From Meiothermus sp. (GTDB lineage Bacteria; Deinococcota; Deinococci; Deinococcales; Thermaceae), in contig NZ_JANXCG010000006.1 of the NCBI RefSeq assembly GCF_025060375.1, positions 1 through 52,053 on the forward strand: a DNA stretch of 52,053 bases. The letters run 5' to 3'. The notes below the pieces were generated by a model. The model worked only from the letters and a program-made list of their open reading frames with translations, did no database searches and was not told the DNA's origin. This document shows, one piece after another, positions 20,814 through 31,784 of the stretch (position 1 is its first letter; each line of letters opens with the position of its first letter). Made by a program: the position numbers and the translations under genes.

Positions 20814-21182
20814 CTAAAGCGGGTCCACCGGCTTTGGCCTGCCGTCCGGCCCCAGCGCCACCATCACAAAGCCGGCCCGGCAGGCCAGCAAGCGTTCCTC
20901 GCGCTCTATGGGTTCCACCCACATCTCCACCTCGAGCCGCATCGAGGTCCTACCCACCTCCTTCACCCAGGCCACCAGCTCCACAATCGAGCCCTGCGGC
21001 ACCGGATGGCGGAAATCCATGGCATCGGCGTGTACCGTGACCACCTTGGCCCGGGCGTGCCGGGTGGCGGCCACAAAAGCCGCCTCATCCATCCAGGCCA
21101 TGGCCGTGCCACCGAAGAGGCTGCCGTAGTGGTTGCAATCGCCGGGGCGCACTAGGTGCACGGTGCGGGTCTCGCGGCTCAT
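20814..21182 (-). CDS. acyl-CoA thioesterase, hotdog fold
   Basis: A 122-residue YciA/BACH-type hotdog thioesterase that hydrolyses acyl-CoA. The motif DCNHYGSLFGGTAMAWMDEA at residues 15-34 contains the conserved Asn, the GG and the catalytic Asp at the start of the hotdog helix. It is the last gene of the nrdI-nrdE-metE-nrdF transcript. Its ATG overlaps the nrdF stop as ATGA, so it is translated from that message. Why a thioesterase should follow B12-sparing enzymes is unclear. It could be fortuitous, or linked to the CoA esters of B12-dependent mutase metabolism. Confidence 0.88.
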   Translation of the reverse strand: MSRETRTVHLVRPGDCNHYGSLFGGTAMAWMDEAAFVAATRHARAKVVTVHADAMDFRHPVPQGSIVELVAWVKEVGRTSMRLEVEMWVEPIEREERLLACRAGFVMVALGPDGRPKPVDPL

Positions 21183-22471
21183 GCCCCTCCTTGCCGGACC
21201 CGGGCCCGCTCCTCGCGGTAGAGGATGTAGGCCCGGGCTACCTCTGGGTAAGTCCGCATCAGCCCCTCCTCCACCAGGTCCTGAATCTCCTCCACCGAGA
21301 GGCTTTGGCGCTCAGCCCTGCGCTTGATGGGCTCCACCACACCCCGCGCAACCCGCTCCAGTTCTACCGTCACACCCACAGCAGCAGCGGCCTTCCCCAC
21401 CGCCCGCACAATGCGCATCTCATCAAAGGGCACCTCACGCCCATCCCGCTTCCGCACCGGCTTCAGGTCAGGGCTTTCCTCGGGAAAGTAGAAGTCAAGG
21501 TCCGAGAGGGGCTCTACCCGGGTGGTCTTGATGTAGCCGTTGCCCTTGGTGGAGAAAAAGTCGTGGTTCTTGGTCTCGGTGCGCAGGCCGGCCAGCACCA
21601 CCGGGTTCACCTCTTCGGCCTCCACCCCAAAGAAGGGCTCCAGCCCCAGGTTCATCAGGGCCTTATCGGCGTTGTAGCGGGAGAAGGTGCGCACCGCCTC
21701 CTCCAGGCCAATCGGCGCGTAGAGGGCCTGGGTATAGCGAGCCTCGAGGGCATCCAGCCGCTCCAGCAGCCCCAGCACTTCCCCTTGGAGCCTCCTCCGC
21801 TCCCCATCGCTCATCCCCGCGGCCCTTTCCTGGGCCAAGAGGCCCACATACACGCCGTGGATGGCCTCGTCGCGGAGGATTAGGCTGATGATCTCCCCCG
21901 AGCTGGTCAGCCGCCCCTGCCCGGCTAGGTAGAGAGGGTAGAAAAAGCCCGAGTAGAAAAGGTAAGACTCCAGAAGGACGCTCGCGGCCATGGCCCGGTA
22001 CAGGGTAGCTCTGTCGCCAATGGTGGTGTAGGCCTCGTGAATGAGGGCCAGCTTGGCCTGCAGCTCAGGCTGGCGCCGCACCCAGGCAAAAAGCTCCTCA
22101 ATGCGCTCCGAGGTGCAGAGGGTAGAGAAGATGGAGCTGTAGCTCTTGGCGTGCATCTGCTCCATGGCCCCCATGAAGGAAAGCACCGCCTTAGCCTGAA
22201 GGCTCTCCACCCCCAGAGCAATCCGCGGCATCCCCACGCCGCCCTGCAGGGTGTCCAAGAGGGTAAGCCCGGCCAGCACCTCCTCGTAGGCCCGCTGCTC
22301 GGCCCGGCTCAAGGTCATCCAGGACAGCTTGTCGTCGGCCAGGGGGATCTCTTCGTCGGTCCAGAACTGCCGCACGTTCTGGTCCCAGAACATCTTGGTA
22401 TAGGCGTCATCGGGTCGGTTCCAGTTGACCGCGCTGAAGGGGCTTTGTGGGCTGGAGAGGGGTCCGTTCAT
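21179..22471 (-). CDS. nrdF: class Ib ribonucleotide reductase radical subunit with C-terminal ATP-cone
   Basis: NrdF houses the metal-tyrosyl radical used by NrdE to reduce ribonucleoside diphosphates. All expected ligands are present: Asp73 (LLDTLQ), Glu104 and His107 (MEQMH), radical Tyr111, Glu168 (LLESY), and Glu202 and His205 (DEAIH). A normal NrdF is about 320-330 residues; this one has 430. After the R1-binding tail (SDLDFYF, about residue 323-329) comes an added domain of some 90 residues starting PVRKRDGREVPFDEMRIVRA. This is an ATP-cone, the allosteric ATP/dATP switch usually found on the large subunit. The ATG overlaps the metE stop as ATGA. Assignment to class Ib rests on nrdI and the NrdE type. 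Confidence 0.95.
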   Translation of the reverse strand: MNGPLSSPQSPFSAVNWNRPDDAYTKMFWDQNVRQFWTDEEIPLADDKLSWMTLSRAEQRAYEEVLAGLTLLDTLQGGVGMPRIALGVESLQAKAVLSFMGAMEQMHAKSYSSIFSTLCTSERIEELFAWVRRQPELQAKLALIHEAYTTIGDRATLYRAMAASVLLESYLFYSGFFYPLYLAGQGRLTSSGEIISLILRDEAIHGVYVGLLAQERAAGMSDGERRRLQGEVLGLLERLDALEARYTQALYAPIGLEEAVRTFSRYNADKALMNLGLEPFFGVEAEEVNPVVLAGLRTETKNHDFFSTKGNGYIKTTRVEPLSDLDFYFPEESPDLKPVRKRDGREVPFDEMRIVRAVGKAAAAVGVTVELERVARGVVEPIKRRAERQSLSVEEIQDLVEEGLMRTYPEVARAYILYREERARVRQGGA

Positions 22472-24783
22472 AAAGACTCCTGCGGGTTGAGGGGGGATTC
22501 TGCCCGCTTCCGAAGTTGCCGGGCAGCCTCAACAAGGTTGACCAGGGCTGGCTTAACCTCTTCCCATCTGCGGGTTTTCAGGCCGCAGTCGGGGTTGACC
22601 CATATCTGATGGGGGGCTAGGCGCTCTAGGGCCTTCTCCAAAAGCTCCACCATCTCGGCCACGGGCGGCACCCGCGGGGAGTGGATGTCGTAAATCCCGG
22701 GCCCGATCTGGTTGGGGTAGCGGTAGGAGACAAAGGCCTCGAGCAGCTCCATCTTTGAGCGCGAGGCCTCAATGGAGATCACATCGGCGTCCATATCGGC
22801 GATGGACTCGATGATGTCGTTGAACTCGGAGTAGCACATGTGGGTGTGAATCTGGGTCTCATCGGCCACCCCCGAGGCGCACAGCCGGAAGCAGGCCACC
22901 GCCCAGGCCAGGTAGCCGTCCCACTCGGCCCGGCGCAGCGGCAGGCCCTCCCGCAGGGCTGGCTCGTCAATCTGGATGACGCGGATTCCGGCTCGCTCGA
23001 GGTCGGCCACCTCATCCCGAAGGGCCAGGGCAATCTGGCGGCAAACCTGCTCGCGCGGAAGGTCGTCGCGCACAAAAGACCACTGCAGCATGGTCACGGG
23101 CCCGGTCAGCATGCCCTTGACCGGCTTTGAGGTAAGGGACTGGGCGTAGCTCGCCCACTCGAGGGTCATCGGACGGGGGCGCGAGACATCGCCAAAGAGA
23201 ATCGGGGGGCGCACGTAGCGCGAGCCGTAGCTCTGAACCCAACCGTGCTGGGTAAAGGCGTAGCCGCGGAGCTGCTCGGCGAAGTACTGCACCATATCGT
23301 TGCGCTCAAACTCCCCGTGCACGAGGACATCCAGGCCGATTTCCTCCTGCCAGCGCACCGCCTCCTCCACCTTGCTCTTGAGGAAGTCCGTGTAATCGGC
23401 GGCGCTCAGCTCACCCTTGGAGAAAGCAGCCCGGGCCTTGCGCACCTCGCTGGTCTGGGGGAAAGAGCCGATGGTGGTGGTGGGGAAAAGGGGCAGCCCA
23501 AGGCGGGCCTGCTGGACCTCTCGGCGCACCGGGAAAGGGCTCTTGCGGCGGGTCATCTCGGGCGTGATCCGCGCGAGGCGCTCCTGCACCTGAGGGTCGT
23601 GGATCCTGGGCGAGGTGCGGCGCGCGGCCACCGCCGCCGCCGAGGCGGCCAGCTCGTCCCTTACCGCCCCTCGCCCCTGGTTGAGGGCCCGGCCCAGAAT
23701 CGAGAGTTCTTCCAGCTTCTGCACCGCAAAGGCCAGCCAGCTCTTCAGCTCCGGGTCGAGGGCGGTTTCCAAGGAGAGGTCTATCGGCACGTGCAGCAAG
23801 GAGCAAGAAGGGGCGATGATCACCCGGTCTTCCCCCCGCGCCTCCACCACCGGCTCAATCCAATCCAAGATGGCCGGCAGGTTCGCCCGCCAGACGTTGC
23901 GCCCGTCAATCACCCCAAGCGAGAGGGTGAGTTCCCCTGGCGCCTTGAGGAGAACCGCCTCGAGCTCACCGGGGGCGCGCACCAGATCGAGGTGCACCCC
24001 GGCCACCGGCAGGGAAAGCGCGAGCTCGAGGTTCTCCCCGTAACCGCCAAAATAGTTGGTCAGGAGAAGGTTCAGCCCCGGCGCCGCCTCGGCCAGGGCT
24101 GTGTAGGCCCTGCGGAACGCGCTGTGGCTGGCCTCATCGAGGTCAAGCGAGAGCGCCGGCTCGTCCATCTGCACCCACCGGGCGCCGCAGTCGCGCAAGC
24201 GGCGCAGCACCTCGGCGTAGACCGGCAGAAGGCCCTCGAGCCAATCGAGCGGGTTCAGCGTCTTGTCCTTGCTTTTGGCGAGCTTGAGGTAGGTTACCGG
24301 CCCCAGCAGCACCGGCCGGGTCTCGTAGCCCAGGGCTTTGGCCTCCAGGTACTCGTCGATGGGCTTGGTGGAGGCCAGCTGGAAGGTCTGGTCCGGCTCG
24401 AGCTCCGGCACCATGTAGTGGTAGTTGGTATCAAACCACTTGGTCATCTCGAGCGCGGGCAGCCCCCTGGTTTCGCTGCCGCGGGCCATGGCGAAGTAGA
24501 GCTCGAGCGGAACCTCCCCGCCCTTCCACCCATACACCGCTGGAATTGCCCCAACCATAACGCTGGTGTCAAGCACGTGGTCGTAGAAGGAGAAGTCGTT
24601 GCTGGGGATATGGGTGATGCCCAGGGCGTGCTGCCTGGCCCAGTTGGCCTTGCGCAGCCCGCGCCCCACCTCCAGCAGGACGGAGGCAGGAGCCTTGCCC
24701 GACCAAAAATTCTCCAACGCGAACTTCAGCTCCCGCTTGGAGCCGATCCTCGGAAAACCCAAACTGCTGATTGCAACAGGCAC
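22468..24783 (-). CDS. metE: cobalamin-independent methionine synthase
   Basis: MetE transfers the methyl group of methyltetrahydropteroyl-triglutamate to homocysteine to make methionine, without B12. At 771 residues it has the full two-barrel length. It starts with the typical SSLGFPRIGSKRELKFALE. The C-terminal half carries the zinc ligands: HTHMCYSEF near residue 645 and NPDCGLKTR near residue 735. The GTG start is preceded by AAAGGAG. It lies 53 bases after nrdE and overlaps nrdF by four bases, placing it inside the reductase operon under the upstream cobalamin riboswitch. This fits its role as a B12-sparing enzyme. Confidence 0.97.
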   Translation of the reverse strand: MPVAISSLGFPRIGSKRELKFALENFWSGKAPASVLLEVGRGLRKANWARQHALGITHIPSNDFSFYDHVLDTSVMVGAIPAVYGWKGGEVPLELYFAMARGSETRGLPALEMTKWFDTNYHYMVPELEPDQTFQLASTKPIDEYLEAKALGYETRPVLLGPVTYLKLAKSKDKTLNPLDWLEGLLPVYAEVLRRLRDCGARWVQMDEPALSLDLDEASHSAFRRAYTALAEAAPGLNLLLTNYFGGYGENLELALSLPVAGVHLDLVRAPGELEAVLLKAPGELTLSLGVIDGRNVWRANLPAILDWIEPVVEARGEDRVIIAPSCSLLHVPIDLSLETALDPELKSWLAFAVQKLEELSILGRALNQGRGAVRDELAASAAAVAARRTSPRIHDPQVQERLARITPEMTRRKSPFPVRREVQQARLGLPLFPTTTIGSFPQTSEVRKARAAFSKGELSAADYTDFLKSKVEEAVRWQEEIGLDVLVHGEFERNDMVQYFAEQLRGYAFTQHGWVQSYGSRYVRPPILFGDVSRPRPMTLEWASYAQSLTSKPVKGMLTGPVTMLQWSFVRDDLPREQVCRQIALALRDEVADLERAGIRVIQIDEPALREGLPLRRAEWDGYLAWAVACFRLCASGVADETQIHTHMCYSEFNDIIESIADMDADVISIEASRSKMELLEAFVSYRYPNQIGPGIYDIHSPRVPPVAEMVELLEKALERLAPHQIWVNPDCGLKTRRWEEVKPALVNLVEAARQLRKRAESPLNPQESL

Positions 24784-24836
24784 CGCTACTCCTTTCCCGG
24801 TACTCCGAGAAACGTTCCGCTAAGCTGTTAAGTCCA

Positions 24837-26915
24837 TCACACCGCGCAGCTTATGCACTCCTCCACCGAAAGGTTCTTGGTGCGGGTGTAGTAGAGGCTT
24901 TTGAGGCCCTTCTTCCAGGCGTAGATGTAGAGCCGGGCCAGCTCGCGGGTGCTGGTCTCGCTGGTCACATACAACACCGTGCTGATGCCCTGGTCCACGT
25001 GGGGCTGAATCTCGGCCACCAGGTCAATCAGGCGGTACATGTTGATGTGGTAGGCCGACTTGTAGTACCAGTAGGTCTCCTCCGAGAGGAAAGGGGCAGG
25101 GTAGTAGGTGGTGGCGTTGCCGTAGGTGCGGGTCTCCACCACATCCACGATGGGAGCGATGGAGGGGGTGGCGTTTTGGATGTAGCTGATGCTGGCCGTG
25201 GGGGCAATCGCCAGGCGGTAGGCGTGGTAGAGGCCGTGGACCCGCACCTCGTCCCTAAGGCGTGCCCAGTCGGCAGGGGTGGGCAGGGCGATGCCCTCGA
25301 AGAGGCGCCGCACGGCTTCGGTGCGCGGGCGGAAGTCCTCCTCTAGATAGGGCTCGAAGTAGACCCCGCTGGCGTAGTCGGAGCGCTCGAAGCCCTCAAA
25401 GGTCAGCCCGCGCTCCCGGGCAATCTGCATGGAGCGCTCTATGGAGTAGAAGTTCACCGCGGCGAAGAAGCTCCGGGCGAAGTCGCGGGCCTCTTTCGAC
25501 TCGTAGCGGATGCGGTTTTTGGCCAGGTAGCCGTGCAGGTTCATGGCCCCCAGGCCCACCGAGTGGAAGGCCCGGTTGGCCCGGCGCACCCCAGGGGCGT
25601 TCCTAATGTCCGAAAGGTCGCTCACCGCGGTGAGCATGTCCATGGCGGTGTGCACGCTTTCCTGCAGCCCCTTGGACTCCATCACGTTCACGATGTTGAG
25701 TGAGCCCAGGTTGCAGCTGATGTCGTAGCCAATCTGGTCGCCCGCGCCGTAGTCGCCGATGATGGAGGTGGTCTGGAGCTGGAATATCTCGGTGCAGAGG
25801 TTGGACATCTTGATCTGCCCGAGGCCCTTGAGCGGGTGGGCCCGGTTGGCGTTGGACTTGTAGATGAGGTAGGGGTAGCCGGACTCAAACTGGGTCTGGG
25901 CAATGCGGGTGAGCATGGCCCGGGCCGATAGGGGGCGCTTTTTGACCGCGGGATGGGCCAAGAGCTCCTCGTAGCGCCGGTCCAGGTCCATGTCGTCGAG
26001 GTGTTCGCCGAAGGCCTGGTAGACCGAGTAGGGAGCGAAGACATAGAAGTCCTCCCCCCGCTCGGCCAGCTCGAAGAACTTGCTCGGCACAATCAGCCCC
26101 AAGGAGAGGGTCTGAAGGCGGCTTTTCTCGTCGGCATTGATCTTCTTGGTGTCGAGGAACTCCTCCACATCCCAGTGGAAGATGTTGAGGTAGACCGCCC
26201 CGGCCCCCTTGCGCTGGCCCATCTGGTCGGCGTAGTTGAAGGCGTCCTCGAACAGCTTCGCCACCGGCACCACCCCCTTGGCCGCGTGGGCCACGCCCTT
26301 GATGGGCTCTCCCCGCCCCCGCAGCTTGGAGAGGTTGATGGCCACCCCCCCGCCGATTTTGGAGAGCTGCATGGCGGTGTTGAGGGTGTAGCCGATGGAG
26401 TTGAGGGAGTCGTCGAGCTCGAGCAGGAAGCACGAGACCAGCTCCCCCCGCCGGGCCCGGCCCGCGTTCAAGAAGGTGGGGGTGGCGGGCTGGTAGCGCC
26501 CCTCCATCATCGCCCGCACGTAGGCGCGGGCTTTACCCACGTCGCCCTGGGCTAAGTGCAGCGCCACCGCCACAACGCGGTCCTCGTAGCGCTCGAGGTA
26601 GTGTTTTTTATCGTCGGACTTCAGGGCGTAGTCCTTGTAGAACTTGGAGATGGCCATGAAGCTGGCAAAGCGGAAGCCGTAGCTGTAGGCCAGGTCGGAA
26701 AGCTCAAGCAGGTCTTCCTCCCGGTACAGCCGGAAGAAGTCCTCGTAGTAGCCCTCAGCGATCAGGGCCCGCAAGCGCTCGATGGGCCCGGGGAACGACC
26801 TCAGCTTCTTCTGAACCTCCTCCTCAAAGGCCTGGGCGGCCTCGAGATCCTTCTCCAGCTGGAAAAAACCATCTCTCTTGTGCAACAGGGCGCTGTTCAG
26901 CTCAAGGTAGCGCAT
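24837..26915 (-). CDS. nrdE: class Ib ribonucleotide reductase catalytic subunit
   Basis: NrdE reduces ribonucleoside diphosphates to deoxy forms using the radical from NrdF. The 692-residue protein lacks the N-terminal ATP-cone of class Ia enzymes. It has the first redox cysteine in ELVSCFLLELDDS, the KIGGGVAINLSKLRG segment, and the radical site NLCTE (Asn, Cys, Glu). The second redox cysteine is in SCNLGSLNIVNV, APTASISYI follows later, and the C-terminal CISC pair is reduced by a redoxin. Unlike the nearby nrdJ, its NLCTE site has no intein. The ATG lies inside the last codons of nrdI (14-base overlap). Confidence 0.96.
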   Translation of the reverse strand: MRYLELNSALLHKRDGFFQLEKDLEAAQAFEEEVQKKLRSFPGPIERLRALIAEGYYEDFFRLYREEDLLELSDLAYSYGFRFASFMAISKFYKDYALKSDDKKHYLERYEDRVVAVALHLAQGDVGKARAYVRAMMEGRYQPATPTFLNAGRARRGELVSCFLLELDDSLNSIGYTLNTAMQLSKIGGGVAINLSKLRGRGEPIKGVAHAAKGVVPVAKLFEDAFNYADQMGQRKGAGAVYLNIFHWDVEEFLDTKKINADEKSRLQTLSLGLIVPSKFFELAERGEDFYVFAPYSVYQAFGEHLDDMDLDRRYEELLAHPAVKKRPLSARAMLTRIAQTQFESGYPYLIYKSNANRAHPLKGLGQIKMSNLCTEIFQLQTTSIIGDYGAGDQIGYDISCNLGSLNIVNVMESKGLQESVHTAMDMLTAVSDLSDIRNAPGVRRANRAFHSVGLGAMNLHGYLAKNRIRYESKEARDFARSFFAAVNFYSIERSMQIARERGLTFEGFERSDYASGVYFEPYLEEDFRPRTEAVRRLFEGIALPTPADWARLRDEVRVHGLYHAYRLAIAPTASISYIQNATPSIAPIVDVVETRTYGNATTYYPAPFLSEETYWYYKSAYHINMYRLIDLVAEIQPHVDQGISTVLYVTSETSTRELARLYIYAWKKGLKSLYYTRTKNLSVEECISCAV

Positions 26916-27291
26916 GGTTCTCCTCTAAAGCGGCCACAGCGGCCAAAAAGCGCAGCCGGTCCTTCTCTGTACCCGAAAGCTCAAACTTAAGGAGCACCGG
27001 CAGACCGTAGCGGGCGGAGAGCAGGTCGGCGGCACGGGCGAAGTTTTGGCCCCAGTTGCGGTTGCCACTGGCCGCCACGCCCTTTATGAAGGGCCGGTTG
27101 CCCTCCACAAAGCGCACCACCTCCGGGGGTACCTGGCCAAAGCCGGTGGTGTAGGTTACCAGCAGGCAGGGCACCTCTACCCGCTCCCCTCCATCCAGAA
27201 TCCGCCTTTTTGGCAGGGGCAGGCGCTCAACGAAGCGGGCCACATTGCCGGTTTTGGAAGCATAGACCAGGAGCAATTTCCCAGAAGGCAC
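26902..27291 (-). CDS. nrdI: NrdI flavodoxin-like activator of class Ib ribonucleotide reductase
   Basis: NrdI is a small FMN protein that supplies superoxide to assemble the dimanganese-tyrosyl cofactor of NrdF. The 129-residue protein starts KLLLVYASKTGNVARFVERL, with the FMN phosphate loop SKTGN. VTYTTGFGQVPPEV and GVAASGNRNWG, which form the flavin pocket, follow. The frame is open 24 codons upstream, but GTG 27291 follows a strong GGAGG-rich site and matches the family start. It is the first gene of the riboswitch-controlled operon and marks the downstream reductase as class Ib. Confidence 0.94.
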   Translation of the reverse strand: MPSGKLLLVYASKTGNVARFVERLPLPKRRILDGGERVEVPCLLVTYTTGFGQVPPEVVRFVEGNRPFIKGVAASGNRNWGQNFARAADLLSARYGLPVLLKFELSGTEKDRLRFLAAVAALEENHALP

Positions 27292-27464
27292 AAAACCCTC
27301 CCTCCTGTGCAAAACTGCCAGGCTCAAACCCGAGAAGGCCCCCCGCTGGCCCAAGGGGCGCATCGACCGGACGCCGCATCACACCCCCGCCTGCGGGCTG
27401 GTGGAGAGGCAAGCAAGAGCCACTCTAGTTTCTTGGGGGAGCTTTCACCTTGACCATCCTTTCC

Positions 27465-27572
27465 GTCCTTGACGCGAGGACTAGGAGACCCAGCCGGGCA
27501 GGTAATCGGGCTTTCACCGTTGCGCGACAGCGGCGGAATTGCACCGCACTTCCCCTGTCACCGGTGGGGAAA
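27465..27572 (-). ncRNA. cobalamin (B12) riboswitch upstream of nrdI
   Basis: On the minus strand, GGTGACAGGGGAAG (complement 27562-27549) is followed by GCGGTGCAATTCCGCCGCTG. Then come CGCGCAACGGTGAAAGCC and CGATTACCTGCC (ending at complement 27497). These are the conserved core segments of cobalamin riboswitches, including the B12 box. A GTCCT/AGGAC hairpin follows (27465-27481) and may be the kissing-loop or switching stem. Further down, a CACC-CCCG / CGGG-GGTG hairpin (27382-27403) could be part of the expression platform, although it has no T-run. Adenosylcobalamin binding would be expected to lower expression of nrdI-nrdE-metE-nrdF. Confidence 0.93.
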
Positions 27573-27677: not shown

Positions 27678-30600
27678 CTAGCCACACTTGCTGTACCCAC
27701 AGCTGTAGCACTTAACGCAGCCCTCCTCCCGCACCAGGGCCGCCTCGCCGCACTCGGGGCAAGGAGAGCCGGGCTTTGGCGGAGGGGTCAGGGCCCGCTG
27801 CATGGCCTGGGGTACCAGGTCCTCGCCCTTGACCTCTGAAAGAGAAACCTTCCCACTGGTCTCGAGCGCCACTGCAATCAGGTCGGCCTTGCTGGTCACA
27901 AAGCGACCCTGGTAGCTGCCGTACAGCCCCCCGTTGATGCCGCGCAGGGTCCGGACCAGCTCGGCTGGGGGCACCCCGTACTGCAGAGCTTTGGAGATGA
28001 TGCGGCCCAGGGCCTCACTATCAGCATTGGCCTCGTCCCCAGCCTTGCCCGAGGTAAGGATCACCTCTATCGGATGCTCACCCTGCATGTTCACCGTAAC
28101 CAGAAAGCTGCGGCGGGTACCATCAGCCGCGGTAAGCTTAACCATATCGGTGTACCCCACCAGCCGACCGGTTCGCTCAAAGACGGGGCGGGCTGGGGCC
28201 GGCGCCGGGGGCACCTCGAGCAACCCGGGCTGCACGGCTACGGTCTTCTCCGTAGACTTCTCCTCCTTGCTCACCGAAAGCACCTGGAACTCCCTGGAGC
28301 CGTCCCGGTAAACGGTAATCCCCTTGCACCCCGTGCGGTAGGCTTCTGTGTAGGCCGCCTCCACGTCCTCCACCGTAGCCTCGTGGGGAAGGTTTATGGT
28401 TTTGGACAGGGAGTTCCCTGCGTAGCCCTCTGCATCAAAGGCAGTCTGCACCACCCCCTGCATCCGCACATGGTCCAGGGGAGAAACGTCGTGGGCACAC
28501 TGGAAGACCTCACGAATGGCCTTGGGAACGAAGGACAGGTTCTGCACCGAACCCCGTCCATCCTTTTGGATTTCCTCCACGACCTTTTCCCAATCCCACC
28601 GCCCGCCTTTTTCGTAACCAGGAGGGGGCGGATAACCTTCCATGAGCTCCACGAAGAGGGGATGGAGAAGGGGCTTGTACTCCCCCCCAATGCGGCGCCA
28701 GACAAAGGGGCTGAAGACCGGCTCAATGCCGCTAGAAACCCCCATCAACATGCTCGTAGTGCCGGTAGGAGCCACAGTGAGCAGGGCAACGTTGCGGCGG
28801 GGACGAATGCCCAAGGAGCGGAAGTACTCCTCGTGCTCGGCATAGAGGGGGAAAACCCCCCGCTCTTCAGCAAGCTGCTCCGAAGCTGCGATGGCCTCCT
28901 CCCGCAGGGCGCTCATCACCTGGGCCACGGCCCGCCTTGCCTCGGGAGAGGCATAGGGCAGGCCCAGCTTGATGAGCATGTCGGCCAGGCCCATGACCCC
29001 TAGGCCCAACCGGCGCAGCTTCTGGCTGGCCACCCGGTTGTCCTCTAGGGCGAAGACGTTCACGTCTAGAACGTTGTCCAGGAACCGCACCGCAGTCCGG
29101 ACGTCTTTGCGAAACTCCTCCATCTGGAAGGCCCCGTCCTTGACGTAAGCGGCAAGGTTAAGAGCCCCCAAATCGCAGGGTTCGCCCACGGTGAGGGGGA
29201 TTTCACCGCAGTTGTGGCAAACAAAGCCGTTGGCAACAAGGCTGTGGGTCACCGGCTCGGTGAGGTCGTAAACGGGGAGCTCTCCTAAGGGCTCTATGCG
29301 CTCCACCCGCGCCACGAAGGGCCGGCGGTGGCTGCCCTGCGGGGGGTTCTGAAGGAAGCTCCGAAGCTTTGCCTGCTTCTCCTCCTGCAAGAAACCCACT
29401 GCCTCGGTAAAGCGGTCCCGGTTCCAGGCCCCCAGGACAAGCTCGTACTCCCCCGCCACGGGGTATTCCCTCGTACCACCCTGCCCGTTGGCCAAAGGCT
29501 TTTTGCCCACGGAGCGGCGCCGGCCAATTTTGCTGAAGATGCCCAGGTTCAGGAGAAGAAGCTGCACATCCTGGAGAAAGCCCAGACTGGGGGAAGCAAG
29601 GCGCAGCGAAGCACCCTGCCTGCCCTGGCTCACCTGCACCGCGCCATCGGCACTGAAGAGCCCCTGGAGGAAGCCCACCACGGCTTCCCGCGGTGCCCGG
29701 AAAATGCTTTCGGGAAGCCGCTTTTCCGTGGCCTTGGTCGCTTTCACCCCCAATGCCTGGAAGAACTCCACCGGCGTGCCTTTGAGGTGGAAGTGGTACC
29801 CGTTGAAGGGCGTTTCCTGTAGGGTACCCCCGCCAAACCAGTCCCCAAGGAGGTCCAGAAGCCAGCCCACAGCCCGGTAATCCTCCTTGGAGAAGAAGAG
29901 GCCCACCCCGTCCTCCCGTAGGTAGCCACTCCCCAAAAGCCACCCTATGGCCACACCCAACTCGCGGCTCCACTGAGTGGGGAGGTTCCCGCACCGTACC
30001 CGGACATCCGCCCCGCCCAGCCCGTCCCTCCCGCTTGCCGCAACCACCCGCTCACGCACCACAGCCAAAGCTGGGGCAGGCAAAGCCTGTTCCTTCGGGA
30101 AAAGGCCCTCCCCGCTTTGGATCAGGATCTGGTCGCCCGGGCGCAGGCTGCCGGCCTCCTTGTAGCCCTCGGGAGTAAGAACCCGGTGGTCGGGGGTAAG
30201 CGCAAGCTCCAACCCCTCCTTCGTGCTAAGGCGGATCACGGGCTTTACCCCGGTGAAAAAGGCCCTAGCCGCCCGACGCACCGTGGTGCCTCTCAAGCTT
30301 AAGGGCCGCCCAACCCCACCCAGGGGCGCCCGGTTGTCCGTGACCAGGAAGAACCCCTCGGGTCTTTTTGCCAACTCCGCAATGGGCACCAAGCCGTACT
30401 CCGTGGGCACCCGCGTGGAGCCGACAAAGCAAGGATTGGTGGAGCGGATCTGGTAGCGTTCCCCCAACCCCTTCAAGGCGGAGAGGGCGTTGATGCGATC
30501 TACGAAGATGAGCCCCGGCTCCCCCGTGGCCCAGGCGTGCCAGGCAATCTCGTGCCAAAGCCAACGGGCTGGAACCTTGCCGCCAAAGAGAGGAATGGGA

Positions 30601-31784
30601 CGAGCCCCATCTGAGGGCCGTTCCGGTAGGTCGGGGAGTTTACCGGTGTAGGCCCCCTGGACGGGGCAGGGGTAGTACTTGCCCGGCACCTCGGCGGGCT
30701 CTACTGGCCAAAGCCCATCGTTCTGCAAGGCCTGCCAAAAGGATTCGGTAACCAGGATGGAGATGTTGAAAGTGGAGATGTCGCCCTCTGCAGCCTCACG
30801 ATCCAAGTCCTTGGCGGTGAGGAAGTCCAGGAGATCGGGGTGGTCGATGGAGAGGGTGGCCATCCCTGCCCCGCGCCGGGTACCCCCCTGGCGCACCACC
30901 CGGAGCACGGGGGCATAGACATAGCGCAGCGTCGCCACCGGCCCAGCCTTCTCTGCCCCCAGGTTAGCCCACTCCAAGAAGTTGTCAAATATCTCCACCA
31001 AGAAACTCACAGGGCCGCTGCTGGTACCCCCCGAGCCCCGGATGGGAGCCCCTTCGGGGCGCAGGGCGCTGAAGTCCACGTGGGGCTCCTGGCCTCTTAT
31101 TGCCAGGCCCAAGGCAGCCTGGGCGCTCTCAATAATGCCCCGCATATCATCGGGAACCACCAGGGCATCCGCGGGCTTCTCCCGCACCGTCATCACCCCG
31201 TAGCGGCGGGCCATAGCGGCCAGCTCCGGGCGCAGAAGGCCGTAGACCACCCGGGTCCAGTTGCGCACGGTAATCGGCTCTTTCTCCCCATCGGGGTTGA
31301 TGGGGGGCCGCATCAACCCCCTGATAAAGTCCTCCACATCCGGGTGGGCAGCGCTCATGTAGGCGAACCCCCGCACAGTACCCCGGGAACCGGCGTTCCT
31401 GCGGGAGACGTAAGGGTCAAGGTTCACCCCGTTCCCTCCCCCCACCTTGGTGACCAGGGCCAGTTTGGCGGCCACCTCCATAATCCCCTCAAAGCTACTG
31501 GGATCGTGCTCGGTGGCCCCCTGCACAAAGCAGTTGAGCACGTTGCCGTGCTGGGTACCGGCTCCAGCCAAGACCCGTCCTCCTGGGCAGAAGCGCTTGG
31601 AGGCCATCAGGCGGTAAAACTCCTCTGCCCAATGGGCCCTCTCCCCCTCCCTTTCGGGCAAGGCCACCCAGTTGGCCACCCGGCGAAACATCCCGAAGAC
31701 ATCGCCATCCCCGGGCTGCATGTACTGGCGTTTAGCGATAGAGCGGGCGTGGTCGTCAAAAGTAGCCGGCTGAAAACTGCCCAT
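27678..31784 (-). CDS. nrdJ: class II (B12-dependent) ribonucleotide reductase, intein-containing
   Basis: NrdJ reduces ribonucleotides with a radical made from adenosylcobalamin and needs no separate radical subunit. The 1368-residue precursor has the first redox cysteine in GNVLNCFVQG near residue 100, KVGGGNGVNLDPY near 130, and the radical-site motif NPCGEIPL split by an intein. The second redox cysteine is in GEPCDLGALNLAAY, and APTGTTSMLMG follows later. The C-terminus is cysteine-rich (CPECGE, CVKCYSCGYSKCG). Removing the 407-residue intein leaves 961 residues. The frame extends 68 codons upstream, but ATG 31784 follows GGAGGA at the right spacing. It has its own NrdR-box promoter and no riboswitch. 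Confidence 0.95.
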   Translation of the reverse strand: MGSFQPATFDDHARSIAKRQYMQPGDGDVFGMFRRVANWVALPEREGERAHWAEEFYRLMASKRFCPGGRVLAGAGTQHGNVLNCFVQGATEHDPSSFEGIMEVAAKLALVTKVGGGNGVNLDPYVSRRNAGSRGTVRGFAYMSAAHPDVEDFIRGLMRPPINPDGEKEPITVRNWTRVVYGLLRPELAAMARRYGVMTVREKPADALVVPDDMRGIIESAQAALGLAIRGQEPHVDFSALRPEGAPIRGSGGTSSGPVSFLVEIFDNFLEWANLGAEKAGPVATLRYVYAPVLRVVRQGGTRRGAGMATLSIDHPDLLDFLTAKDLDREAAEGDISTFNISILVTESFWQALQNDGLWPVEPAEVPGKYYPCPVQGAYTGKLPDLPERPSDGARPIPLFGGKVPARWLWHEIAWHAWATGEPGLIFVDRINALSALKGLGERYQIRSTNPCFVGSTRVPTEYGLVPIAELAKRPEGFFLVTDNRAPLGGVGRPLSLRGTTVRRAARAFFTGVKPVIRLSTKEGLELALTPDHRVLTPEGYKEAGSLRPGDQILIQSGEGLFPKEQALPAPALAVVRERVVAASGRDGLGGADVRVRCGNLPTQWSRELGVAIGWLLGSGYLREDGVGLFFSKEDYRAVGWLLDLLGDWFGGGTLQETPFNGYHFHLKGTPVEFFQALGVKATKATEKRLPESIFRAPREAVVGFLQGLFSADGAVQVSQGRQGASLRLASPSLGFLQDVQLLLLNLGIFSKIGRRRSVGKKPLANGQGGTREYPVAGEYELVLGAWNRDRFTEAVGFLQEEKQAKLRSFLQNPPQGSHRRPFVARVERIEPLGELPVYDLTEPVTHSLVANGFVCHNCGEIPLTVGEPCDLGALNLAAYVKDGAFQMEEFRKDVRTAVRFLDNVLDVNVFALEDNRVASQKLRRLGLGVMGLADMLIKLGLPYASPEARRAVAQVMSALREEAIAASEQLAEERGVFPLYAEHEEYFRSLGIRPRRNVALLTVAPTGTTSMLMGVSSGIEPVFSPFVWRRIGGEYKPLLHPLFVELMEGYPPPPGYEKGGRWDWEKVVEEIQKDGRGSVQNLSFVPKAIREVFQCAHDVSPLDHVRMQGVVQTAFDAEGYAGNSLSKTINLPHEATVEDVEAAYTEAYRTGCKGITVYRDGSREFQVLSVSKEEKSTEKTVAVQPGLLEVPPAPAPARPVFERTGRLVGYTDMVKLTAADGTRRSFLVTVNMQGEHPIEVILTSGKAGDEANADSEALGRIISKALQYGVPPAELVRTLRGINGGLYGSYQGRFVTSKADLIAVALETSGKVSLSEVKGEDLVPQAMQRALTPPPKPGSPCPECGEAALVREEGCVKCYSCGYSKCG
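29211..30431 (-). other. intein in NrdJ (407 residues)
   Basis: The in-frame insert begins with Cys1 (CFVGSTRVPTEYG) and ends VCHN, followed by extein CGEIPL. It has the splicing block B motif LTPDHRV near intein residues 78-84 and the terminal His-Asn pair, so all splicing residues are present. The central part is a LAGLIDADG homing endonuclease domain: motif 1 near residues 159-170 (IGWLLGSGYL) and motif 2 near 253-264 (FLQGLFSADGA). Motif 1 has Ser where inteins usually have Asp (GDG), so cleavage may be lost. It sits directly before the predicted thiyl-radical cysteine, which serves as the +1 splicing nucleophile. Confidence 0.95.

Follow-up and report, generated by a model that had tools for sequence, protein, structure and literature searches.

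A Meiothermus NrdJ intein, predicted to splice, with a very probably inactive and decaying homing endonuclease of likely Thermus-like origin

Most of the VMA endonucleases found in yeasts are inactive and have lost one or both of their catalytic Asp residues (PMC1508164). Similarly, the PhoVMA intein of Pyrococcus horikoshii is without its catalytic Asp residues and shows no cleavage (PMC8966425). Inteins have also been described at the active sites of ribonucleotide reductases, as a preliminary description of the locus studied here had noted: the R2 intein of Aquifex aeolicus splits such an active site (PMC8772380). Inteins of the rir1 type have been listed from Thermus (PMC4071816). A literature search on Meiothermus inteins and on active-site Asp mutants of PI-SceI returned nothing useful. 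We analyzed a window of 52,053 nucleotides from Meiothermus sp. (contig NZ_JANXCG010000006.1, positions 1 to 52,053), in which an intein interrupts the ribonucleotide reductase gene nrdJ; all coordinates below are positions in this window unless a relative is named.

The host gene, nrdJ (27678..31784, minus strand), encodes an adenosylcobalamin-dependent (class II) ribonucleotide reductase (TIGR02504 NrdJ_Z, 585 bits). Its ATG start at 31784 was inferred from relatives, as the alignment begins at that Met; the mechanically called open reading frame runs from 31988. The intein (29211..30431, minus strand) was delimited with Pfam and NCBIfam models and by alignment. It comprises 407 residues with no stop, and joining the exteins gives a gapless NrdJ of 961 residues. 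The insertion splits NrdJ between NP and CGE and thus parts the N-P from the C-G-E of the N-x-C-x-E active site. Within the STNPCGEI stretch, the +1 Cys (codon 29208..29210, minus strand) aligns with residue 322 of Thermotoga maritima NrdJ (1xje), which we take, from what is established of that structure, to be the thiyl-radical cysteine. The intein lies exactly before this predicted radical residue, and the alignment bears out the preliminary description, in which the radical Cys at the NP/CGE split doubles as the +1 splicing nucleophile. We strongly infer that unspliced NrdJ is inactive, its active site being interrupted.

The NP|CGE site is not an unusual one, since it is also occupied by inteins in many Thermus species and in other families of the order, and distantly related inteins in Gottesmanbacteria and Microgenomates, which have kept both catalytic acids of the endonuclease, use it too. 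Several Thermus nrdJ genes (e.g. L088 and L078) harbor up to three inteins per gene, whose insertion points lie close to positions 302, 451 and 723 of the spliced protein.

Searching the protein with hmmscan, we recovered the Pfam models Intein_splicing (PF14890; 39.7 bits, curated cut-off 35.8) and LAGLIDADG_3 (PF14528; 63 bits, curated cut-off 22.5), as well as the NCBIfam models intein_Nterm (TIGR01445) and intein_Cterm (TIGR01443), both above their curated cut-offs. The N-terminal splicing (HINT) part spans residues 1-109 (30105..30431, minus strand), with its boundaries taken from the alignment and TIGR01445 covering residues 1-86. It opens with Cys1 (codon 30429-30431), which is invariant across all alleles, and contains a block B TxxH of sequence TPDH (residues 79-82; 30186..30197, minus strand), in which T79 and H82 are invariant in the alignment. 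The C-terminal splicing part (residues 370-407; 29211..29324, minus strand), placed by TIGR01443 and alignment, ends in His406-Asn407, with the codon of the terminal Asn at 29211-29213. The codon positions agree to the base with the ends first proposed for the intein, and the alignment and profile matches confirm the splicing residues listed with them (Cys1, TxxH, HN and +1 Cys). With Cys1, TxxH, a penultimate His, a terminal Asn and the +1 Cys in place alongside the profile matches, the NrdJ insert is, as judged from its sequence, a class 1 intein that is predicted to splice. The splicing domain is under strong purifying selection (omega 0.05-0.09), which lends indirect support to splicing.

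The insert also encodes a LAGLIDADG homing endonuclease domain (residues 150-369; 29325..29984, minus strand), identified by PF14528 and by its fold, which we judge to be decayed on the basis of changed columns and dN/dS. Motif 1 reads WLLGSGYL (residues 164-171), where Ser168 (AGT; 29928..29930, minus strand) aligns in place of the metal-binding Asp. Motif 2, FLQGLFSADG (29643..29672, minus strand), keeps its acid, Asp262 (GAT; 29646-29648). Column 168 is Asp in every family allele with both acids intact (17/17), encoded by GAT or GAC. To arrive at AGT, two bases of GAT or three of GAC must change, which is more than one miscalled base can account for. We sought a replacement catalytic acid near motif 1 in the family alignment and found none. 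The RED residues that follow motif 1 are also present in intact family alleles and are therefore no replacement for the lost acid. The substitution of Ser for Asp in LLGSGYL and the retention of SADG in motif 2, both noted in the preliminary description, are thus upheld against 17 intact alleles, and the family alignment did not show a catalytic acid elsewhere in motif 1, the outcome that the description had named as refuting.

In a predicted structure of moderate confidence (pLDDT 73.5) with poor termini, the LAGLIDADG helices span residues 156-168 and 248-262, with residues 168 and 262 at the helix ends. Foldseek matched this fold most closely to the TliVMA intein (E 2.9e-19), followed by PhoVMA and PI-PfuI. 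The domain therefore has the two helices of the homing endonuclease fold, with an acid ending motif 2 and Ser168 ending motif 1. We consider it very probable that the LAGLIDADG enzyme no longer makes double-strand cuts. In profile searches of the genome, which is 99.8% complete, PF14528 and TIGR01445 detected neither a further intein nor a further LAGLIDADG gene; these models were used because a genome search with PF14890 missed even the nrdJ intein, probably because the endonuclease splits the model. By these searches, the genome offers no endonuclease in trans.

We compared 50 genomes of the family: an intein occupies NP|CGE in 20 of them, and nrdJ is uninterrupted there in the rest, with that of G070 being fragmentary. 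Within Meiothermus, the intein is present in 4 of 18 species and the site is empty in the other 14, so the decay is not attributable to filling of the site throughout the genus. Both acids are present in 17 of the 20 alleles. Elsewhere, we observed the replacement of Asp by Asn (G027), the replacement of Asp by Ser together with broad decay (the intein described here, hereafter the Meiothermus intein) and an eroded remnant (G014). The inteins of G027 (L084) and G024 (L085) are near-identical and have AAT and GAT, respectively, as the catalytic codon; we read the Asp to Asn change in G027 as a natural, single-base loss that would be very recent. G014 (L079) has an intein of 350 residues that has lost the two acids together with portions of the endonuclease and keeps the splicing residues. 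The motif 1 Asp was lost independently in G027 and G014.

To quantify decay, invariant columns were defined among the 17 intact alleles, with leave-one-out counts for the intact alleles themselves, and compared by Fisher test. The Meiothermus intein departs from the family at 16/110 invariant endonuclease columns, compared to 2/73 splicing-domain columns (Fisher p = 0.010). Endonuclease changes number 0-5 in the intact alleles by the leave-one-out count, 3 in G027 and 41 in G014. Branch codon models, applied to genes whose synonymous changes approach saturation from one genus to another, gave in separate fits an endonuclease omega of 0.22 on the Meiothermus intein branch against a background of 0.075 (LRT 13.9), and a splicing-domain omega of 0.050 against 0.062 (LRT 0.4). 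In a joint fit that shared branch lengths and excluded the motif codon, endonuclease omega was 0.154 against 0.072 (p = 0.0019). One of six other branches in the joint fit was also raised, that of G071 (omega 0.184, p = 0.007), an allele with intact motifs that changes 1/111 invariant endonuclease columns. Raised endonuclease omega as a mark of dead alleles only was rejected on this account, and the invariant-column count is the better evidence of decay.

Endonuclease omega on the Meiothermus intein branch is also well under 1 (LRT against neutrality, 19.3), meaning that the domain is not freely evolving. This residual constraint may reflect a loss that was recent or came part-way along the branch, or a fold that still aids splicing. 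Given its intact allelic relatives, a relaxed endonuclease (with the caveat of G071) and a conserved splicing domain, we place the intein at the decay stage. The preliminary description had likewise seen a fit with the late part of a homing cycle, with the endonuclease apparently lost and splicing kept; this reading draws support from column decay, dN/dS, independent losses and the unoccupied site of the sister species, both functions being read from sequence.

The intein tree joins the Meiothermus intein to those of Thermus genomes G071 and G073 (support 100/97). A same-genus grouping, when forced, is rejected (p-AU 0.006), and the Meiothermus intein is 76% identical to a Thermus allele compared to 59% for same-genus alleles. 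A comparison with intein-free relatives, as had been suggested at the outset, found the site empty in the closest sister species, G007 (L069), whose NrdJ is 94% identical and whose gene order is the same. The outer parts of nrdJ group the host with G007 inside its own genus (support 100). In the segment that bears the site (residues 400-490), the host and G007 instead fall inside Thermus (99/99), and they do so again for residues 590-745 (100/100); the Thermus-like tracts of the two genes lie around residues 390-490 and 590-745. Against a same-genus grouping, the AU test gave a weak rejection for residues 590-745 (p-AU 0.042) and no rejection for residues 400-490 (p-AU 0.21), so co-conversion of the site segment rests on the branch support of 99/99 and not on the AU test. 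A Thermus tract confined to the flanks of the intein-bearing host was considered and rejected, as the empty sister G007 has Thermus-like segments too.

Over 131 nt (nt 1216-1346 of the spliced coding frame), the nrdJ of G007 is identical to that of Thermus G073, and this stretch stops 7 nt short of the insertion site; among cross-genus pairs without G007, the longest exact run is 65 nt. The match may be a trace of homing that happened in the past or was aborted. We also observed that the intein of Thermus genome G066 (L073) belongs to the Meiothermus-like clade. Intein transfer between Thermus and Meiothermus seems to have occurred in both directions. In the simplest history for the intein studied here, a Thermus-like donor would have given the intein along with its flanks, decay would have followed in the lineage of the host, and G007 would have either lost the intein or undergone a separate replacement.

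Directly downstream of nrdJ, the genome encodes a second reductase that is B12-independent and intein-free. This block (21179..27363) consists of nrdI (26902-27363), nrdE (24837-26915), the methionine synthase gene metE (22468-24783) and nrdF (21179-22471), all on the minus strand. The encoded NrdF has a C-terminal ATP-cone (PF03477, residues 339-423). This uncommon architecture has been reported only in a few Meiothermus species (PMC5794259), and its presence points to Meiothermus as the genus of the host. Between nrdJ and nrdI-nrdE-metE-nrdF lies an AdoCbl-II riboswitch (27492..27566, minus strand; Rfam RF01689, 43.1 bits, cut-off 36.5), and this element adjoins nrdJ in G007 (L069, 9511-9585) and G014 (L079, 4102-4176) as well. 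The placement of the riboswitch suggests a B12-controlled switch between two reductases. Going by gene content, ample B12 would presumably keep the backup repressed and make the cell depend on NrdJ and thus on splicing; under B12 shortage, the backup reductase may sustain the cell.

Together, we think it highly likely that the insert is a class 1 intein that splices, that its endonuclease is very probably cleavage-dead and decaying, and that it originated in a Thermus-like donor and is now passively inherited in the Meiothermus lineage. In line with this model, the intein would excise itself and join NP to CGE, restoring the N-x-C-x-E active site, and purifying selection would hold on to the splicing domain, since NrdJ that fails to splice would be without an active site. 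The endonuclease would have lost double-strand cleavage, as one metal-binding acid has given way to Ser and changes are building up in the remainder of the domain. Entry would have been by intergenus transfer, probably along with flanking nrdJ sequence. Such an origin has to be weighed against vertical inheritance within the genus, with the likeness to Thermus arising by chance or from composition. Three other species of the genus do have an intein at the same site, which would fit vertical descent, but the p-AU of 0.006, the higher identity to Thermus (76%) than to same-genus alleles (59%) and the grouping of gene segments near the site with Thermus make it very unlikely. We give hardly any credence to Ser168 being a sequencing or assembly error. 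The species is represented by a single draft genome, which leaves room for such an error, but the codon is two adjacent base changes from GAT and three from GAC, and 15 other invariant columns differ.

The state of the endonuclease allows for further readings. If Ser168 or a nearby acid bound metal, the enzyme could be active still and homing could continue, in agreement with the retained motif 2 Asp, the overall fold and an endonuclease omega below 1. We regard this as very unlikely: Asp occupies the motif 1 column in all alleles whose two motifs are intact, RED is found in active-type relatives too, 15 further invariant columns are altered, and yeast VMA inteins need both Asp residues, with inactive alleles mostly lacking one or both (PMC1508164). 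It is also rather unlikely that the domain serves as a one-strand nickase, a DNA binder or a folding scaffold required for splicing in a mutualism of the two domains. That it remains in frame and close to full length under partial constraint (omega 0.15-0.22) would suit such roles, and dependence of the scaffold kind has been reported in other inteins (PMC8966425). However, a recent loss would leave equal residual constraint, and G014, with part of the domain and both acids lost at the same site, keeps all splicing residues. There is a slim chance that a cleavage-dead domain has acquired a function of its own, such as aiding splicing or tuning the timing of NrdJ activation. If so, the intein would be a kept regulatory part, not a passive relic, in a cell with a B12-independent reductase behind a riboswitch.

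The decaying, passively inherited intein that we favor has clear counterparts among known systems. The Thermus NrdJ inteins (Thermus sp. 2.9, T. arciformis and others) share its insertion codon and block order and are 68-76% identical to it; nearly all of them have Asp in both motifs, whereas the Meiothermus intein has Ser and changes at 16 invariant columns. The A. aeolicus R2 intein interrupts the small subunit, which generates the radical, at a position between metal ligands, whereas the Meiothermus intein is found at the thiyl-radical cysteine. PhoVMA (PDB 7qst) is likewise an intein of the splicing type whose LAGLIDADG domain is almost full-size and has suffered catalytic acid loss, but it resides in a different host protein, with both acids gone and a helix turn deleted, while the Meiothermus intein has lost one acid and kept its length. 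The Debaryomyces hansenii VMA intein, which is without the proximal Asp, shows the same motif 1 acid loss with the intein retained (PMC1508164). The yeast VMA inteins are eukaryotic and occupy another host gene, whereas the Meiothermus case is embedded in an allelic series inside one bacterial family. Inteins with inactivated endonucleases are already well described, and the Meiothermus NrdJ intein adds another that is ordinary in kind. In isolation, it lengthens by one the list of inteins with broken endonucleases, and its value lies in its setting among an unusually complete set of relatives. At one site in one bacterial family, intact alleles, fresh loss, advanced decay, a remnant and empty sites occur together with transfer between genera, so that the steps of the homing cycle become testable with natural alleles of a single site. 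This allelic series is the most useful feature of the system.
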